Assembly (NCBI RefSeq): GCF_011040385.1
Contig: NZ_JAAIKB010000001.1
Location: 496,001-560,000 of the forward strand
Origin: Falsiroseomonas algicola
GTDB taxonomy: Bacteria; Pseudomonadota; Alphaproteobacteria; Acetobacterales; Acetobacteraceae
Reading direction: 5' to 3'
Length of the DNA: 64,000 bases
The position numbers and the translations under genes are program-made. Within the stretch, counting starts at the first letter, position 1, and every line of letters starts with the position of its first letter. Below the pieces are notes generated by a model. The model was not told the origin of the DNA and ran no database searches. It saw nothing but the letters and a program-made list of their open reading frames with translations. This document shows, one piece after another, positions 14,557-19,117 of this stretch.

Positions 14557-15804
14557 ATGGCAGGCAAGCGGGTTCTGGTGGTCGGCGCGGGGATCGTGGG
14601 GCTGGCGCTGGCCTGGCGGCTGCAACGCCTCGGCGCCGAGGTCGCGATCGTGGACCCGGAGCCCCCCGGCGAGGGCGGCGCCAGCTTCGGCAATGCGGGC
14701 GCCATCTCGGCCAGTTCCGTCGTGCCGCTGGCGACACCAGGCGTGCTGAAGACGGTGCCGCAGATGCTGCTGGACCCGAAGGCGCCGCTGCACATCCCGG
14801 CGGGCTACTGGCTGCAGGCCGCGCCCTGGCTGGCCCGCTTCGTCGCCAGCGCCACCCCCGCCACCGTGGCGCGCGTGGCCAAGGCGCTGGACCAGTTGCT
14901 GCACCTCGCGACCGAGCAGCACCAGGCCCTGGCGCGGGAGGTCGGCGTGCCGGAGGTGCTGGTCGCGAAGGGGCAGCTCTATGTCTATCGGGACGAGAAG
15001 CAGCTTGCGAAGGATACCTCCAGCTGGGCGATGCGGCGGGCGGCCGGGGCGGAGGTCGTGCGGCTCGACCGTGCGGGGATCGAGGCGCTGGAGCCCGAGA
15101 TCGGCCCTGCCTACCAGCTCGGCATGTTCATGCCGGACCACACGCATTGCGCCTCCCCTTTTCGATACGCACAGGCGGTGGCGACGGCCTTCCGCGACGC
15201 GGGCGGGGAGATCCGGCAGGACCGGGTGCTGGCGCTGACGGTGAGCGACGGCCGCGTGACCGGCGCGCAGGGCGAAGTCATGCACCACAGGGCCGAGGAG
15301 GTGGTGGTGGCCGCCGGCGCCTGGTCCGCGCGGCTGGTGGCGCCGCTGGGCTACCGCATCCCGCTGGAGACGCAGCGCGGCTACCATGTGAACCTTTTTG
15401 ATTCGGGGCTATCGCTGCAACGGCCGGTGATCCCGGCGGACCGGAAGGTGTTCATCACGCCGATGGAGGGCGCGTTGCGCGTCGCCGGCACGGTGGAGTT
15501 CGGGGGCCTGGAGCGAGCACCGAACGAGGAACGCGCGCGGCTGCTGTATGGCGACCTGACGGCGGTGTTCCCGCAGGCGCGGGTGGACGGCGCCGAGGGC
15601 TTCTGGATGGGGCACCGGCCCTGCCTGCCCGACAGCGTGCCGGTGATCGGGCCGGCGGAGCGGGTGAAGGGGCTGTGGTTCGCCTTCGGGCACGGGCATC
15701 TGGGGCTGACCGGGTCAGCGCCGACGGCGGAGATGCTGGCGCCGGCGATCATGGGACGGCCGGGGAATGCGGATATGGGGGGGTACGCGGCGGAGAGGTT
15801 TTGA
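14557..15804 (+). CDS. FAD-dependent D-amino acid dehydrogenase-like oxidoreductase (DadA family)
   Basis: A 415-residue DAO-fold flavoenzyme. VLVVGAGIVGLALAWRLQ at residues 6-23 is the FAD-binding motif; GGASFGNAGAIS, HTHCASPFRY and the C-terminal GHGHLGLTGSAPTAEMLA block match the DadA branch, which deaminates D-amino acids to keto acids on the cytoplasmic face and feeds the quinone pool. ATG 14557 with GGGGA upstream gives the family length; the open frame from 14440 adds 39 unlikely residues. It ends 25-30 bases before the composition changes into the reverse-transcriptase island. Confidence 0.88.
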   Translation: MAGKRVLVVGAGIVGLALAWRLQRLGAEVAIVDPEPPGEGGASFGNAGAISASSVVPLATPGVLKTVPQMLLDPKAPLHIPAGYWLQAAPWLARFVASATPATVARVAKALDQLLHLATEQHQALAREVGVPEVLVAKGQLYVYRDEKQLAKDTSSWAMRRAAGAEVVRLDRAGIEALEPEIGPAYQLGMFMPDHTHCASPFRYAQAVATAFRDAGGEIRQDRVLALTVSDGRVTGAQGEVMHHRAEEVVVAAGAWSARLVAPLGYRIPLETQRGYHVNLFDSGLSLQRPVIPADRKVFITPMEGALRVAGTVEFGGLERAPNEERARLLYGDLTAVFPQARVDGAEGFWMGHRPCLPDSVPVIGPAERVKGLWFAFGHGHLGLTGSAPTAEMLAPAIMGRPGNADMGGYAAERF

Positions 15805-15973
15805 GGAGCGGCGGACTTGAGCGGATCTGACTTATGCCATCTTAGCGACCGCTAAAGCGCTCGATCGAAATGGGCGGATTTGGCGGTAGCGAGTGCCGAT
15901 CCCATCAAAGGCGTAAAGCACAAGAACTTGCCCTCTTGAACCGTTATGGATGCGGTGCCAATTCTAGCCAGCG
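15805..15973. other. Left edge of the AT-richer island, no gene seen
   Basis: Composition drops abruptly after the oxidase stop. A short symmetric sequence, TTAGCgaccGCTAA, lies at about 15842-15855. No coding frame with a ribosome-binding site was found; a frame starting at 15946 runs through the first 147-bp repeat but its residues look random. Confidence 0.4.
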
Positions 15974-16120
15974 GGCTTGTTGATGCTGGGCTATGGGCTG
16001 CCGTCAGGCAGCGCCGTGCAGCTTGGCGGAAGCCTCTGCCTCCGGGTGACCGGGGCAGAGCGGGTCGATGCGGAGGCGGCAGGTCGCCGTGCCCCGCGCC
16101 TCGATGGTCGGCGCCTGTCC
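15974..16120 (+). repeat. 147-bp direct repeat, copy 1, upstream of the reverse transcriptase
   Basis: This block is identical, base for base, to 16338-16484; the two copies start 364 bases apart. Flanking bases differ immediately on both sides. Inside it are a perfect 6-bp hairpin (GCTGCC-GTCA-GGCAGC), a longer stem built on CTCTGCC and GGCAGAG, and a GAGGCG/CGCCTC stem, so the transcript would be strongly folded. It contains few adenines and no credible gene. Possible roles are a duplicated noncoding RNA locus serving the reverse transcriptase or a recent duplication without function. Confidence 0.8.
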
Positions 16121-16269
16121 TGGACTGCTGGTTTCACAGCGGGAGTTCGCCTGGTTTCCGGGAGCTTCTGGACCGCTGCCAGCATTTCTATCCGGGGCGG
16201 GCGAGCGGGCGGCAAGGCCGACTTGCTGACGGGGGCGAAAATGCTACCCGCAAGGCAAAGGAGGCCGCG

Positions 16270-16347
16270 ATGCCACGCTCATGCAAAAACGTGCCAGCCA
16301 GGGCGGCGCCAAGTTGGCGTTCGCGGGTCTGGTCACCGGCTTGTTGA
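16270..16347 (+). CDS. Possible 25-residue leader peptide between the two repeats
   Basis: The spacer between the repeats contains the strongest ribosome-binding site of the island, AAAGGAGG at 16257-16264, five bases before ATG 16270. The frame encodes 25 residues (MPRSCKNVPARAAPSW then RSRVWSPAC) and stops inside the start of repeat copy 2. A second ATG at 16281 in another frame would give an 81-residue product with one hydrophobic segment (LAFAGLVTGLLMLGYGL) but is badly spaced from the site. No homologue is recognised for either. It may be a translated leader, or chance. Confidence 0.25.
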   Translation: MPRSCKNVPARAAPSWRSRVWSPAC

Positions 16348-16484
16348 TGCTGGGCTATGGGCTGCCGTCAGGCAGCGCCGTGCAGCTTGGCGGAAGCCTC
16401 TGCCTCCGGGTGACCGGGGCAGAGCGGGTCGATGCGGAGGCGGCAGGTCGCCGTGCCCCGCGCCTCGATGGTCGGCGCCTGTCC
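16338..16484 (+). repeat. 147-bp direct repeat, copy 2, 56 bp before the reverse transcriptase
   Basis: Identical to 15974-16120. Its end lies 56 bases before the start codon of the reverse transcriptase, the position where retrons and some defence reverse transcriptases carry their noncoding RNA. The perfect identity means the pair is either recent or maintained by conversion or selection. There are no adenine-specific differences of the sort expected for template and variable repeats of diversity-generating retroelements. Confidence 0.8.
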
Positions 16485-16540
16485 AGCAGTAGGGATCGAA
16501 TGTGCCAGAAGCTCCCAGCTGCATGAGTTAGAGGTGACAT

Positions 16541-17830
16541 TTGGCCACCCTCTTGCAACAGCTCCGATCCACGAAGGTGCTTGAGGCTGCCGCGCGTCAC
16601 GTGTGTGGAAAATCGCGCAATTCACGCTCAAGCGCTATCCGCACTGAGACGCAAAATTTCGAGGCAAGACTTCCAACGAACGTCCGGCGCCTGCAAGAGG
16701 AGCTACGCTCGGCCGAGTTTCGGTTCGGACAACAGATAGCCGTTAAGATTCCGCGGCCCGGCAAATCCGATCGACTAATTTTGGTTGCACCGCTCCGCGA
16801 CCGCATCATCCATCGCGCGATCCTAATCGTCCTGCAGGGCAGGCCCGATATGGGAATTCCTGGCGTGCCACTCGTGCAGAAAGCACTAGAGTTTCCCTTT
16901 AGCGTAGGCGGTATCGAGGGAATCGACAAAGGCATCGCCTTAGTGGCAGAGAGTCTGCGAGCCGGCGCAACATACTACGCAAACGCGGATATAAAAGATT
17001 TTTTCCCCCACATTCCAAGGCGCCGTGTTCTTGACAGCCTTCTGAGCGCGACCAAGGACGATCAACTGGTCGAACTCATTGATACAGCACTTGCAATACA
17101 CATCAAAAATGCCAACGATCTTACTAAGGAGGACCTTGTGCGGCTACCTGGAGACAGCGCGGGTGTGCCGCAGGGATCCGCGTTAAGCATGTTGTTTGGA
17201 AACCTTGCACTACAGGACTTTGACCGCCTAATGCAAGGTCGCGGTATTCGCTGCGTTCGCTATGTCGACGATTTTATATTACTCGGCGCTAGCGAGACTA
17301 AGGTAAAGGCGGCATTTAAATCGGCTCGGACTTCTCTCACTGCCATGGGCCTGACGACCTATGAGCCGGGCGACGGCTCCGGAAAGGCAAGCGCTGGCAA
17401 AACCGCGATGGGATTCACTTTTTTAGGTTGCCAGATAAACGGCTCTCTAATTGCTCCAGGGTCTGCTGCGCGGGCCGCGCTTCTTGCTGACGTTGATGAC
17501 TTGTTGAAGGAGGGATGCAGAAATATTTCCAAGACTTTGCGGAGCAGCGGTGCGCGCGAGCGCATTAGCGGCGCCACGGAAGCGCTCCAAAAAGTGTCGC
17601 GAACTGTAAAAGGATGGGGTGAAGCGTTCGCTTTTTGCAATTCGGATATCATCAGACAGCATCTAGACAGCGAGATAGACGAACGCATCGACCGATTTCA
17701 ACGCTGGGTGACGCAAAAATCAAACGGCCTGGATGTTGATCAGCGCATGCGCGCTTTAGGCGTAACCAGGCTAAAAGACCTGAAACAGAAGCAGCTAACT
17801 TTGTCAGATCGAGCCCTCACACGTTCATAA
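16541..17830 (+). CDS. Reverse transcriptase (RNA-directed DNA polymerase), group II-like, class uncertain
   Basis: A 429-residue reverse transcriptase. In order: AVKIPRPGKSDRLILVAPLRDRIIHRAI at 67-94 (motifs 1-2, given here only by its edges), ADIKDFFPHI at 149-158 with catalytic D150, GVPQGSALS at 208-216 (motif 4), YVDD at 241-244, and FLGCQI at 295-300. A thumb-like VKGWGEAFAFCN follows at 356-367. There is no endonuclease or maturase domain. Motif 4 is QGxxxS, not the GxxxSQ form of diversity-generating retroelements, and no NAxxH retron motif is seen. The start is a TTG with GAGGTG four bases upstream, because TGA at 16535 closes the frame. Its base composition is clearly lower in GC than its neighbours, indicating transfer. 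Confidence 0.85.
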   Translation: MATLLQQLRSTKVLEAAARHVCGKSRNSRSSAIRTETQNFEARLPTNVRRLQEELRSAEFRFGQQIAVKIPRPGKSDRLILVAPLRDRIIHRAILIVLQGRPDMGIPGVPLVQKALEFPFSVGGIEGIDKGIALVAESLRAGATYYANADIKDFFPHIPRRRVLDSLLSATKDDQLVELIDTALAIHIKNANDLTKEDLVRLPGDSAGVPQGSALSMLFGNLALQDFDRLMQGRGIRCVRYVDDFILLGASETKVKAAFKSARTSLTAMGLTTYEPGDGSGKASAGKTAMGFTFLGCQINGSLIAPGSAARAALLADVDDLLKEGCRNISKTLRSSGARERISGATEALQKVSRTVKGWGEAFAFCNSDIIRQHLDSEIDERIDRFQRWVTQKSNGLDVDQRMRALGVTRLKDLKQKQLTLSDRALTRS

Positions 17831-17977
17831 TTCCGGTTACCGCGTCGGCGCGCATACCACTGAACTGTATTCGCGAGGCGACTAGCCAAAAACCAGCCCG
17901 TCAAATGATACGCAAAGCCATGCCAGTTTGAATAGCCGGTTGATTGCCATACAGTGCTCCGATGGCGCGTGCGCACC

Positions 17978-19117
17978 TTACCCCCTCCCCATCCCCACCA
18001 CCCCCATCTCCCCCATCGTCTCCGCCAGCGCCTCCAGCGCCCGCCCGATATCCGCCTCCGTCACCACCCCGATGCAGGCGATCCGGAAGGTGTTCGCCGC
18101 CGCGAGCCGCCCCGGGAAGATGATGAAGCCGCGCCGCTTCATCCCCTCATACAGCGCCTTGAAGGAGTATCCGGGGTCCAGCGGCTCATGGAAGGTCGCG
18201 ACGATCGGCGACGCGACGGCGTCTTCCAGCAGCGTCCGAAACCCCATCTGGCGCATGCCATCCACGAGGCGGCGCCAGCTGCGGTGGTAGCGGGCGTGGC
18301 GGCCCTCGATGCCGCCTTCCTCCTCGTGCTCGCGTAGCGCCTCGGCGAAGGCCAGCAGCAGGTGCGTCGCCGGCGTGAAGCGGAACATCCCTGTGCGGTC
18401 GAGGTGCTGGTTCTGGTCCCAGAGGTCGAGCGTCAGGCTATGGGCGTTGCCCTTCGCCTCCTCCAGCGCCGACTTCTTCGCCACGATCCAGGCGAGCCCC
18501 GGCGGCGCCTGCAGCCCCTTGTTGGCGGAACAGATCACGGCATCGAAGGACAGCGTCCGCGCATCCAGGCGGAAGGCGCCGAAGCTCGCCACCGCGTCGA
18601 TCAGCAGGCCCTTGCCCAGGCGCCGGCAGACCGCGGCGATGGGCTCGATCGGGTTCAGGATGCCGGTGGAGGTCTCGCAGTGGACGAGCATCACATGCGT
18701 GATGCCGGGGTCGGCGGCGATCGCGGCCTCGAACTGCTCGGGCGTCGGCGGCGTGTAGGGGGCGGTGCGGAAGCTGGTGTAGGGGGTGCGGATGCGGCGC
18801 GCGATCTCCACCAGGCGGTCGCCATAGACGCCGTTGGTGTGGATGAGCAGCTTGCCATTGGCGGGGACGAAGGTGCCGATCACGGCCTCCGTCCCCGAGG
18901 TTCCGCTGCCCACCAGCGGAATCGCCGTGTGCGTGCCCTGCGCGTTGCAAAGGCCGAGCAGGTATCGCCGCGACCAGGCGATGGTCTCCTGCATCGCGGG
19001 CTCGCCGGAGGCGAGGTCCCGCAGCATGGCGCGCTTCACGCGGGCGGAGAGGGTGACGGGACCGGGGGTGAGCAGCAGGGGCTCGTCCTCGATCCGCACC
19101 GACTCGACATGGTCCAT
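17978..19117 (-). CDS. phnW: 2-aminoethylphosphonate--pyruvate transaminase-like class V aminotransferase
   Basis: A 379-residue PLP enzyme. LLTPGPVTLSARVKRAML opens the fold, GSGTSGTEAV is the phosphate-binding loop near 71-79, and the Schiff-base lysine is K200 in SANKGLQAPPG. HCETSTGILNPIEPI, SLDLWDQ-like and RFTPATH blocks match PhnW more closely than serine-glyoxylate aminotransferases. PhnW converts 2-aminoethylphosphonate and pyruvate to phosphonoacetaldehyde and alanine. The start at 19117 has GGAGGAG about seven bases upstream. No phosphonoacetaldehyde hydrolase (phnX) or phosphonate transporter is nearby, so the physiological amine could differ. It is last in a leftward run and convergent with the reverse transcriptase. 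Confidence 0.78.
   Translation of the reverse strand: MDHVESVRIEDEPLLLTPGPVTLSARVKRAMLRDLASGEPAMQETIAWSRRYLLGLCNAQGTHTAIPLVGSGTSGTEAVIGTFVPANGKLLIHTNGVYGDRLVEIARRIRTPYTSFRTAPYTPPTPEQFEAAIAADPGITHVMLVHCETSTGILNPIEPIAAVCRRLGKGLLIDAVASFGAFRLDARTLSFDAVICSANKGLQAPPGLAWIVAKKSALEEAKGNAHSLTLDLWDQNQHLDRTGMFRFTPATHLLLAFAEALREHEEEGGIEGRHARYHRSWRRLVDGMRQMGFRTLLEDAVASPIVATFHEPLDPGYSFKALYEGMKRRGFIIFPGRLAAANTFRIACIGVVTEADIGRALEALAETMGEMGVVGMGRG

Follow-up and report, generated by a model that had tools for sequence, protein, structure and literature searches.

Reverse transcriptases (RTs) of the G2L4 clade are described as enzymes of double-strand-break repair, and repair by end joining is published only for the enzyme from Pseudomonas aeruginosa; that RT favours strand annealing over extension and performs microhomology end joining (PMC12337344). 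A YIDD active site (Toro 2014, PMC4244168) and an AQG in motif RT4 (PMC12337344) serve as criteria of the clade. In a further system, DRT2, the RT makes tandem complementary DNA (cDNA) from a pseudoknotted RNA, and this DNA rebuilds a promoter and an open reading frame (ORF) (PMC12039810; PMC11100668). Here we present a lone RT gene of Falsiroseomonas algicola, found in a stretch of 64,000 nt (the window, by which the whole stretch is meant; positions refer to it, and features lie on the plus strand unless stated otherwise), together with two identical direct repeats upstream of it. To judge from related loci, a circularly permuted gene appears to have these repeats as its shared middle: its N-terminal part (N) precedes the second repeat and its C-terminal part (C) follows the first.

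The RT gene occupies 16541-17830, starts with TTG and encodes 429 aa with an intact YVDD motif. Its two upstream repeats, R1 at 15974-16120 (the presumed 5′ end of a template RNA) and R2 at 16338-16484, measure 147 bp each and are 100% identical, and R2 ends 56 bp before the start codon, all as the original prediction had read them. Sixty-eight loci were scanned, most of which came out of a single search through a genome collection at species level, and 41 present the layout P1-R1-spacer-R2-RT (P1 being a candidate promoter), with a long direct repeat ahead of the RT gene; the conserved association with an upstream element that had been envisaged for related RTs is thereby confirmed. Thirty-nine of the 41 were tabulated (L077 has its repeat on the reverse side and L082 duplicates L036). 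The other loci comprise 10 with less than 500 nt of usable upstream sequence, two with N gaps (L028, L065) and 11 with a single R, and the repeat was absent in 4 of the 68 loci scanned (L060, L072, L073, L080). Across the 39 loci R is 116-147 bp long (median 129), the period is 334-382 bp (median 367) and the distance from R2 to the RT is 36-143 bp (median 56, with RT starts that are mostly match starts). Within a locus R1 and R2 are 93-100% identical (100% in 23/39), amounting to 41 mismatches in 4992 bases; the sequence of R differs strongly from locus to locus, and R1 and R2 therefore evolve in concert. Within the 5′ third of R lie 22 of the 41 mismatches, as if homogenisation set in from the 3′ side of R, close to helix A of the pseudoknot described below. 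Twenty-five other RT loci lacked such repeats altogether (the best score among them was 51; three had less than 100 nt upstream), and downstream of the RTs, L077 aside, the scores were 78 (L050, offset 1039), 29 (L026) and at most 19 for the rest. The repeat geometry upstream of the related RTs is thus far beyond chance. A DNA search of Escherichia coli genomes returned no relative, and the 15-mer TGCAAAAACGTGCCA, unspecific when used alone, gave 38 matches in viral contigs, one of which precedes a G2L4 RT.

When spacer, R and spacer are read consecutively in 37 loci (a set that leaves out P. aeruginosa), a frame runs through N, R and C. In the frame of R, the 42 codons that follow R1 are free of stops in 37/37 loci (in the other two frames, in 5 and 4), and the frame before R2 is open over 20 codons in 36/37, another frame being open in 33. 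Upstream of R1, 5/37 loci have an in-frame ATG and 29/37 a stop no more than 30 codons away. In the window, the putative C-part lies at 16121-16269, in frame with R1, and the putative N-part at 16281-16337 (MQKRA..., hydrophobic, in the -1 frame), as read from the ORFs, the window translation and the hydropathy. In 33/37 loci the N-R junction lies within a hydrophobic segment, and a mean hydropathy of 1.6 is reached in 28/37. AlphaFold2 modelling of the contiguous R1-C piece from 18 loci gave a mean pLDDT of 46.5, too low to be informative.

Expression of such a gene could start from a promoter within the spacer (P2), for which the family shows TTGACA or TTGCC, 15-16 nt and TAnnnT; P2 beats shuffled sequences by at least 1 in 24/39 loci, against 5, 6 and 3 of 39 in three controls. 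By analogy with the family position, the window candidate is TTGCTG-16-TACCCG at 16223-16250, which is weak in this genome, and the promoter scan itself favoured another window site. Before R2, AAAAAC occurs in 32/37 loci, and in all 32 the N-R-C frame is -1 relative to the reading AAA-AAC. An ATG preceded by a Shine-Dalgarno sequence was found in 29 of these 32 loci, 27 times in the AAA-AAC frame and twice (L066, L069) in the N-R-C frame itself; the remaining three have none by the rule used. In the window, this ATG (16270) is in frame with the shift site (16285-16290), the whole element spanning 16270-16290, and a hairpin follows the AAAAAC site in the aligned group. Entry into the N-R-C frame thus looks like a -1 frameshift or slippage at C-AAA-AAC, which is not a textbook frameshift site. 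On the minus strand, window positions 16285-16310 and the homologous sites resemble an intrinsic terminator (a hairpin followed by TTTTT), and an antisense transcript could end there.

Phase was examined in 17 of 19 aligned loci, L034 and L035 having been left out beforehand. From the shift site to an anchor in R seven lengths occur, between 174 and 195, all multiples of 3; from the R anchor to pseudoknot strand B the distance is 77 or 80, and from B to P2 it is 56, 59, 62 or 65 in 16/17 loci (58 in L046, from Methylobacterium mesophilicum NBRC 15688). The controls vary freely, namely 37-41, in every phase, from the R anchor to the segment after R2, and 42-46 from P2 to the shift site. Read in this way, the distances argue that phase is preserved on entering R2 and on leaving R1, and is lost on leaving R2. 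An earlier pairwise test of indel lengths was noisy, with multiples of three in 74/146 (C), 61/103 (N) and 23/42 (R) cases and in 20/61 (P2) and 29/153 (post-R2) of the controls, and its net lengths were unusable because the ends of R vary. The RT, which had been thought to have no partner gene, probably does have a small one hidden in the repeat region. A reading of the repeats as plain noncoding RNA was considered as well, and is displaced by the permuted gene on account of the open N-R-C frame and the phase test.

The sequences adjoining the repeats can be folded together. In an alignment of 19 loci that begins where R1 ends and reaches the RT, with the window locus left out, RNAalifold returned unprompted a helix A, between the segments after R1 and after R2, and a hairpin C; helix B, which joins the loop of hairpin C to the segment after the second strand of A (A′), came from a column scan. 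Counted together, the helices have 94.3% of cells paired versus 86.3 in shuffled alignments, 18 of 24 pairs change on both sides (36 such cells versus 7.9 shuffled), and in slid controls pairing drops to 26-42%. Within single loci, the own A and B helices exceed shuffled ones by 2 standard deviations in 35/39, the window among them, and the exceptions are L031, L037, L061 and L079. The window pseudoknot comprises 8 pairs in A (16124-16131 with A′ at 16483-16490), 6 in hairpin C (5′ arm 16137-16142, family helix 2; 3′ arm 16173-16178, from the window helix search) and 12 in B (16160-16171 with B′ at 16505-16516). The duplex energy averages -39.6 for own strands, -33.7 for cross-locus pairs and -27.9 and -28.4 for controls. 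Covariation of A and B argues that an RNA spanning both sides, and hence the spacer and R2, is under selection. The original prediction had taken the 147-bp blocks themselves for structured RNA; a covarying structure does exist, but it lies just downstream of each block, and the blocks look coding. In L079 (921-1414), whose more distant RT falls outside the main clade, the same geometry (119 bp, period 375) occurs without clear A and B helices, and the layout may predate the pseudoknot.

Concerning the enzyme, RVT_1 matches the window RT with 51 bits and the GIIM maturase domain with 14.7, under the cut-off of 23; Pfam, PADLOC and NCBIfam gave generic or sub-threshold matches only. Searched against the PDB, it matches the P. 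aeruginosa G2L4 RT over residues 2-414 with 210.7 bits (next best 68.1), and the family profile gives 400.5 against 126.9 bits. In a quick tree of 53 RTs, whose comparators were group II-like only (retron, diversity-generating retroelement (DGR) and UG proteins being left out), 32 of 34 relatives including the window RT form one clade with a Shimodaira-Hasegawa-like approximate likelihood ratio (SH-aLRT) support of 99, and the G2L4 clade stands apart from 19 group II-like RTs. The active site is YVDD in the window RT and YIDD in 26/34 relatives, and motif RT4 reads PQG and AQG (27/34 relatives), respectively. By these comparisons it is a G2L4-clade protein, divergent at the active-site motif, and the suggestion of an undescribed class gives way to a clade with a published DNA-repair role. 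Its exclusion from the standard retrons and DGRs stands: the retron St85 model reached 33.6 bits (cut-off 235), the RT is not of the DGR class and the repeat mismatches carry no adenine bias. No intron RNA was matched by Rfam at E-values up to 1 within 15800-18000, a lack common to this locus and the G2L4 RTs. Two further assignments were rejected. The PADLOC UG17 (DRT10) model scored 114 bits, yet it gives up to 179 bits for unrelated YADD RTs similar to those of group II introns. For DRT2 (UG2), the Drt2 model of NCBIfam scored 29.4 bits (cut-off 390) and the Drt2 chains 46 bits in the PDB search.

With slightly more conviction than doubt, we favour a mechanism in which the RT copies the RNA of the repeat region, uses the repeats for strand transfer and makes DNA carrying a whole gene, whose product would be an effector. 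A transcript would start at P1 near R1 (in the window, the weak candidate TTGAAC-18-AATTCT at 15936-15965, read from sequence) and run through R1, the spacer and R2 into the RT gene. The regions right after R1 and R2 would fold as the pseudoknot, likely a platform for the G2L4-clade RT. On reaching the 5′ end of the RNA the cDNA would terminate in R1 sequence, and because R2 is identical this end could re-anneal to it and copying continue, as with the R regions of retroviruses. One or more jumps and second-strand synthesis would yield DNA with P2, the N-part, R and the C-part in order; if the cDNA was begun beyond R2, a single jump taking it from the 5′ end of R1 onto R2 would suffice. P2 would then drive a protein of ~110-130 aa with an N-terminal hydrophobic segment, entered through the -1 shift at C-AAA-AAC, while the chromosome as it stands would give a truncated N-R2 version only. 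The product is probably a small protein with membrane anchoring and perhaps a phage-defence effector, which would arrest the cell. For the clade as a whole, we see the chances as evenly divided that its RTs, now regarded as domesticated enzymes of DNA repair, are RNA-templated builders of genes that, through strand transfer of the retroviral kind between terminal repeats, un-permute and activate a frameshift-gated membrane protein, probably for phage defence.

Several points weigh against this proposal. The frames were chosen partly for being open, and loci that are kin do not count as independent. Constraint on the amino-acid sequence is weak (pN/pS, the ratio of nonsynonymous to synonymous polymorphism, is 0.54 for N, 0.74 for R and 0.84 for C in 24 pairs) and C has hardly any codon-position signal. 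An in-frame ATG lies near the start of R1 in 18/37 loci, in which R1-C could be read alone. P1 beats shuffles by at least 1 in just 14/39 loci, and both promoters are poor in the window. The duplex energy is less clear than the covariation, as own strands are the best of all in 5/39 loci and the window value is equalled by 16/38 cross pairs. The complete layout is not kept everywhere, given the 11 single-R loci. No constant defence-gene neighbour was found, and no family occurs in more than 4 of 114 neighbour ORFs (114 of 123 listed, from 32 loci). Published work assigns the G2L4 RT to DNA repair (PMC12337344). Finally, the layout, the near-identity of R1 and R2, the conserved frame, the pseudoknot, P2 and the phase of the shift site are features read from the sequences; the making of joined DNA by the RT, the production of a protein and its role we infer from them.

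The main rival, which we consider unlikely, is excision at the DNA level. Recombination between R1 and R2, or RT-assisted annealing, would free an R-spacer circle of ~334-382 bp that carries P2-N-R-C and leaves a single R behind, and the RT would be an annealing or end-joining enzyme instead of a gene builder, in keeping with the microhomology end joining of the G2L4 RT (PMC12337344). The single-R loci have exactly the composition that excision would leave (R and the post-R2 segment kept, the spacer gone), as blastn confirmed in 9 of the 11, L022 and L029 being assigned by reading only. One of them, L075, belongs to a 2-contig genome, and in another, L044, an R 100% identical to that of L048 over 130 bp stands without spacer. 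These loci may be recombination products or assembly collapses of the short repeat; two copies are present in 3/3 one-contig genomes and in a finished plasmid, and searches for the spacer elsewhere in single-R genomes, which were weak and uninformative, found it in 0/10, 0/4 and 0/3. Excision also leaves the RNA-helix covariation of the post-R1 and post-R2 regions unexplained.

Control of a retron-like or antitoxin-like kind seems to us improbable. Under it, R1 cDNA antisense to the N-R2 message would silence a small membrane toxin until phage relieved the block. Systems of this kind often include small membrane toxins, R1 and R2 are identical, and the chromosomal N-R2 has its own promoter and a hydrophobic segment; such control does not explain, however, why the frame after R1 is open and keeps its phase, or why phase is lost after R2. 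A DGR-like system, with R1 as a template repeat copied faithfully into R2, would fit the template-like repeat followed by structured RNA, the second copy at an ORF end and the concerted evolution, but is very improbable, since adenine bias is lacking (7/41 mismatches at A in R1), 23/39 loci are 100% identical and the RT is not a DGR RT.

The locus as a whole forms an accessory cassette (15807-17978) between two convergent host genes, by ORF reading an oxidoreductase and an aminotransferase-like gene. Both flanking genes occur in order in 3 of 25 relatives searched, in which the conserved flanks run to ~15806-15813 and resume at ~17979-17984; the intervening 1.4-3.8 kb is different DNA and has no 16-mer in common with the RT cassette. 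With the same flanks and differing contents, the site can be read as a small slot for accessory genes. The three relatives, of the same genus (L121, L122, L123), hold FRG-domain or Fic genes there: one FRG-domain gene, one Fic gene with a DUF2188 neighbour and, in L123, a Fic-like ORF identified by eye only. Low GC, which had been ascribed to the island, applies to the RT (0.54 versus 0.709 for the window) and not to the repeats (R1 0.728), so it is confined to the RT part of the cassette. On a viral contig (L088:6303-7271) a phage major capsid gene (Phage_cap_E) follows the RT cassette, which indicates that the cassette can ride in prophages. In a megaplasmid island of P. aeruginosa (L016:7425-11190) the module has a recombinase of the resolvase family and a TIR-domain protein as neighbours. 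A defence role is suggested by the accessory slots and by such prophage and island neighbours, among which integrase accounts for 4 and type I restriction for 2 of the 114 neighbour ORFs. The interpretation of the original prediction is partly supported overall: it was right about a solitary RT in an accessory cassette and about an upstream element that is conserved and undescribed.

Compared with known systems, the window RT shares clade, size and thumb with the P. aeruginosa G2L4 enzyme (PDB 9d5x, 9d4s; PMC12337344, PMC13015716), and the strand annealing of G2L4 RTs would suit transfer between repeats; it differs in having YVDD/PQG instead of YIDD/AQG, and the role in print is that of break repair. 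By word search, neither of these two papers mentions an associated RNA or repeats, and searches of open-licence PubMed Central articles found no RNA or repeats tied to G2L4 and no description of its upstream region. DRT10 (UG17; PMC12632851) also combines an RT with a noncoding RNA and a membrane partner, but its repeats are of 9 nt, those here of 116-147 bp. No SLATT partner gene was seen on reading the ORFs flanking the window RT, where no SLATT model was run. In retroviral and long terminal repeat (LTR) genomes, R at both ends of the RNA permits strand transfer, with U3 before R and U5 after it; the present system differs in being bacterial, in having its RT gene outside the repeats and in lacking integrase and gag. 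If our proposal is true, a second, unrelated bacterial RT class would take part in gene assembly by reverse transcription, so far represented by DRT2, and would do so in a way closely akin to the strand transfer of retroviruses. A different question would then be asked of the G2L4 enzymes, since their crystal structures and repair assays have been read without an RNA partner, and genes could sit permuted and unannotated before lone RTs. The likeness to DRT2 lies in the RT, the adjoining pseudoknotted RNA (likened for its presence beside the RT) and a gene readable only after its template is repeated or re-joined. The differences are that DRT2 is another RT class with a repeat unit of 120 nt, as against 334-382 bp here, that its gene is antisense to the noncoding RNA whereas the present one is on the sense strand, and that the present system has direct repeats of 116-147 bp. 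The never-ending ORF of DRT2 is likewise not matched, as 14/37 joined frames stay open throughout the second spacer and 23 meet a stop. By analogy, then, the system would work like the gene assembly of DRT2 without being a member of DRT2.
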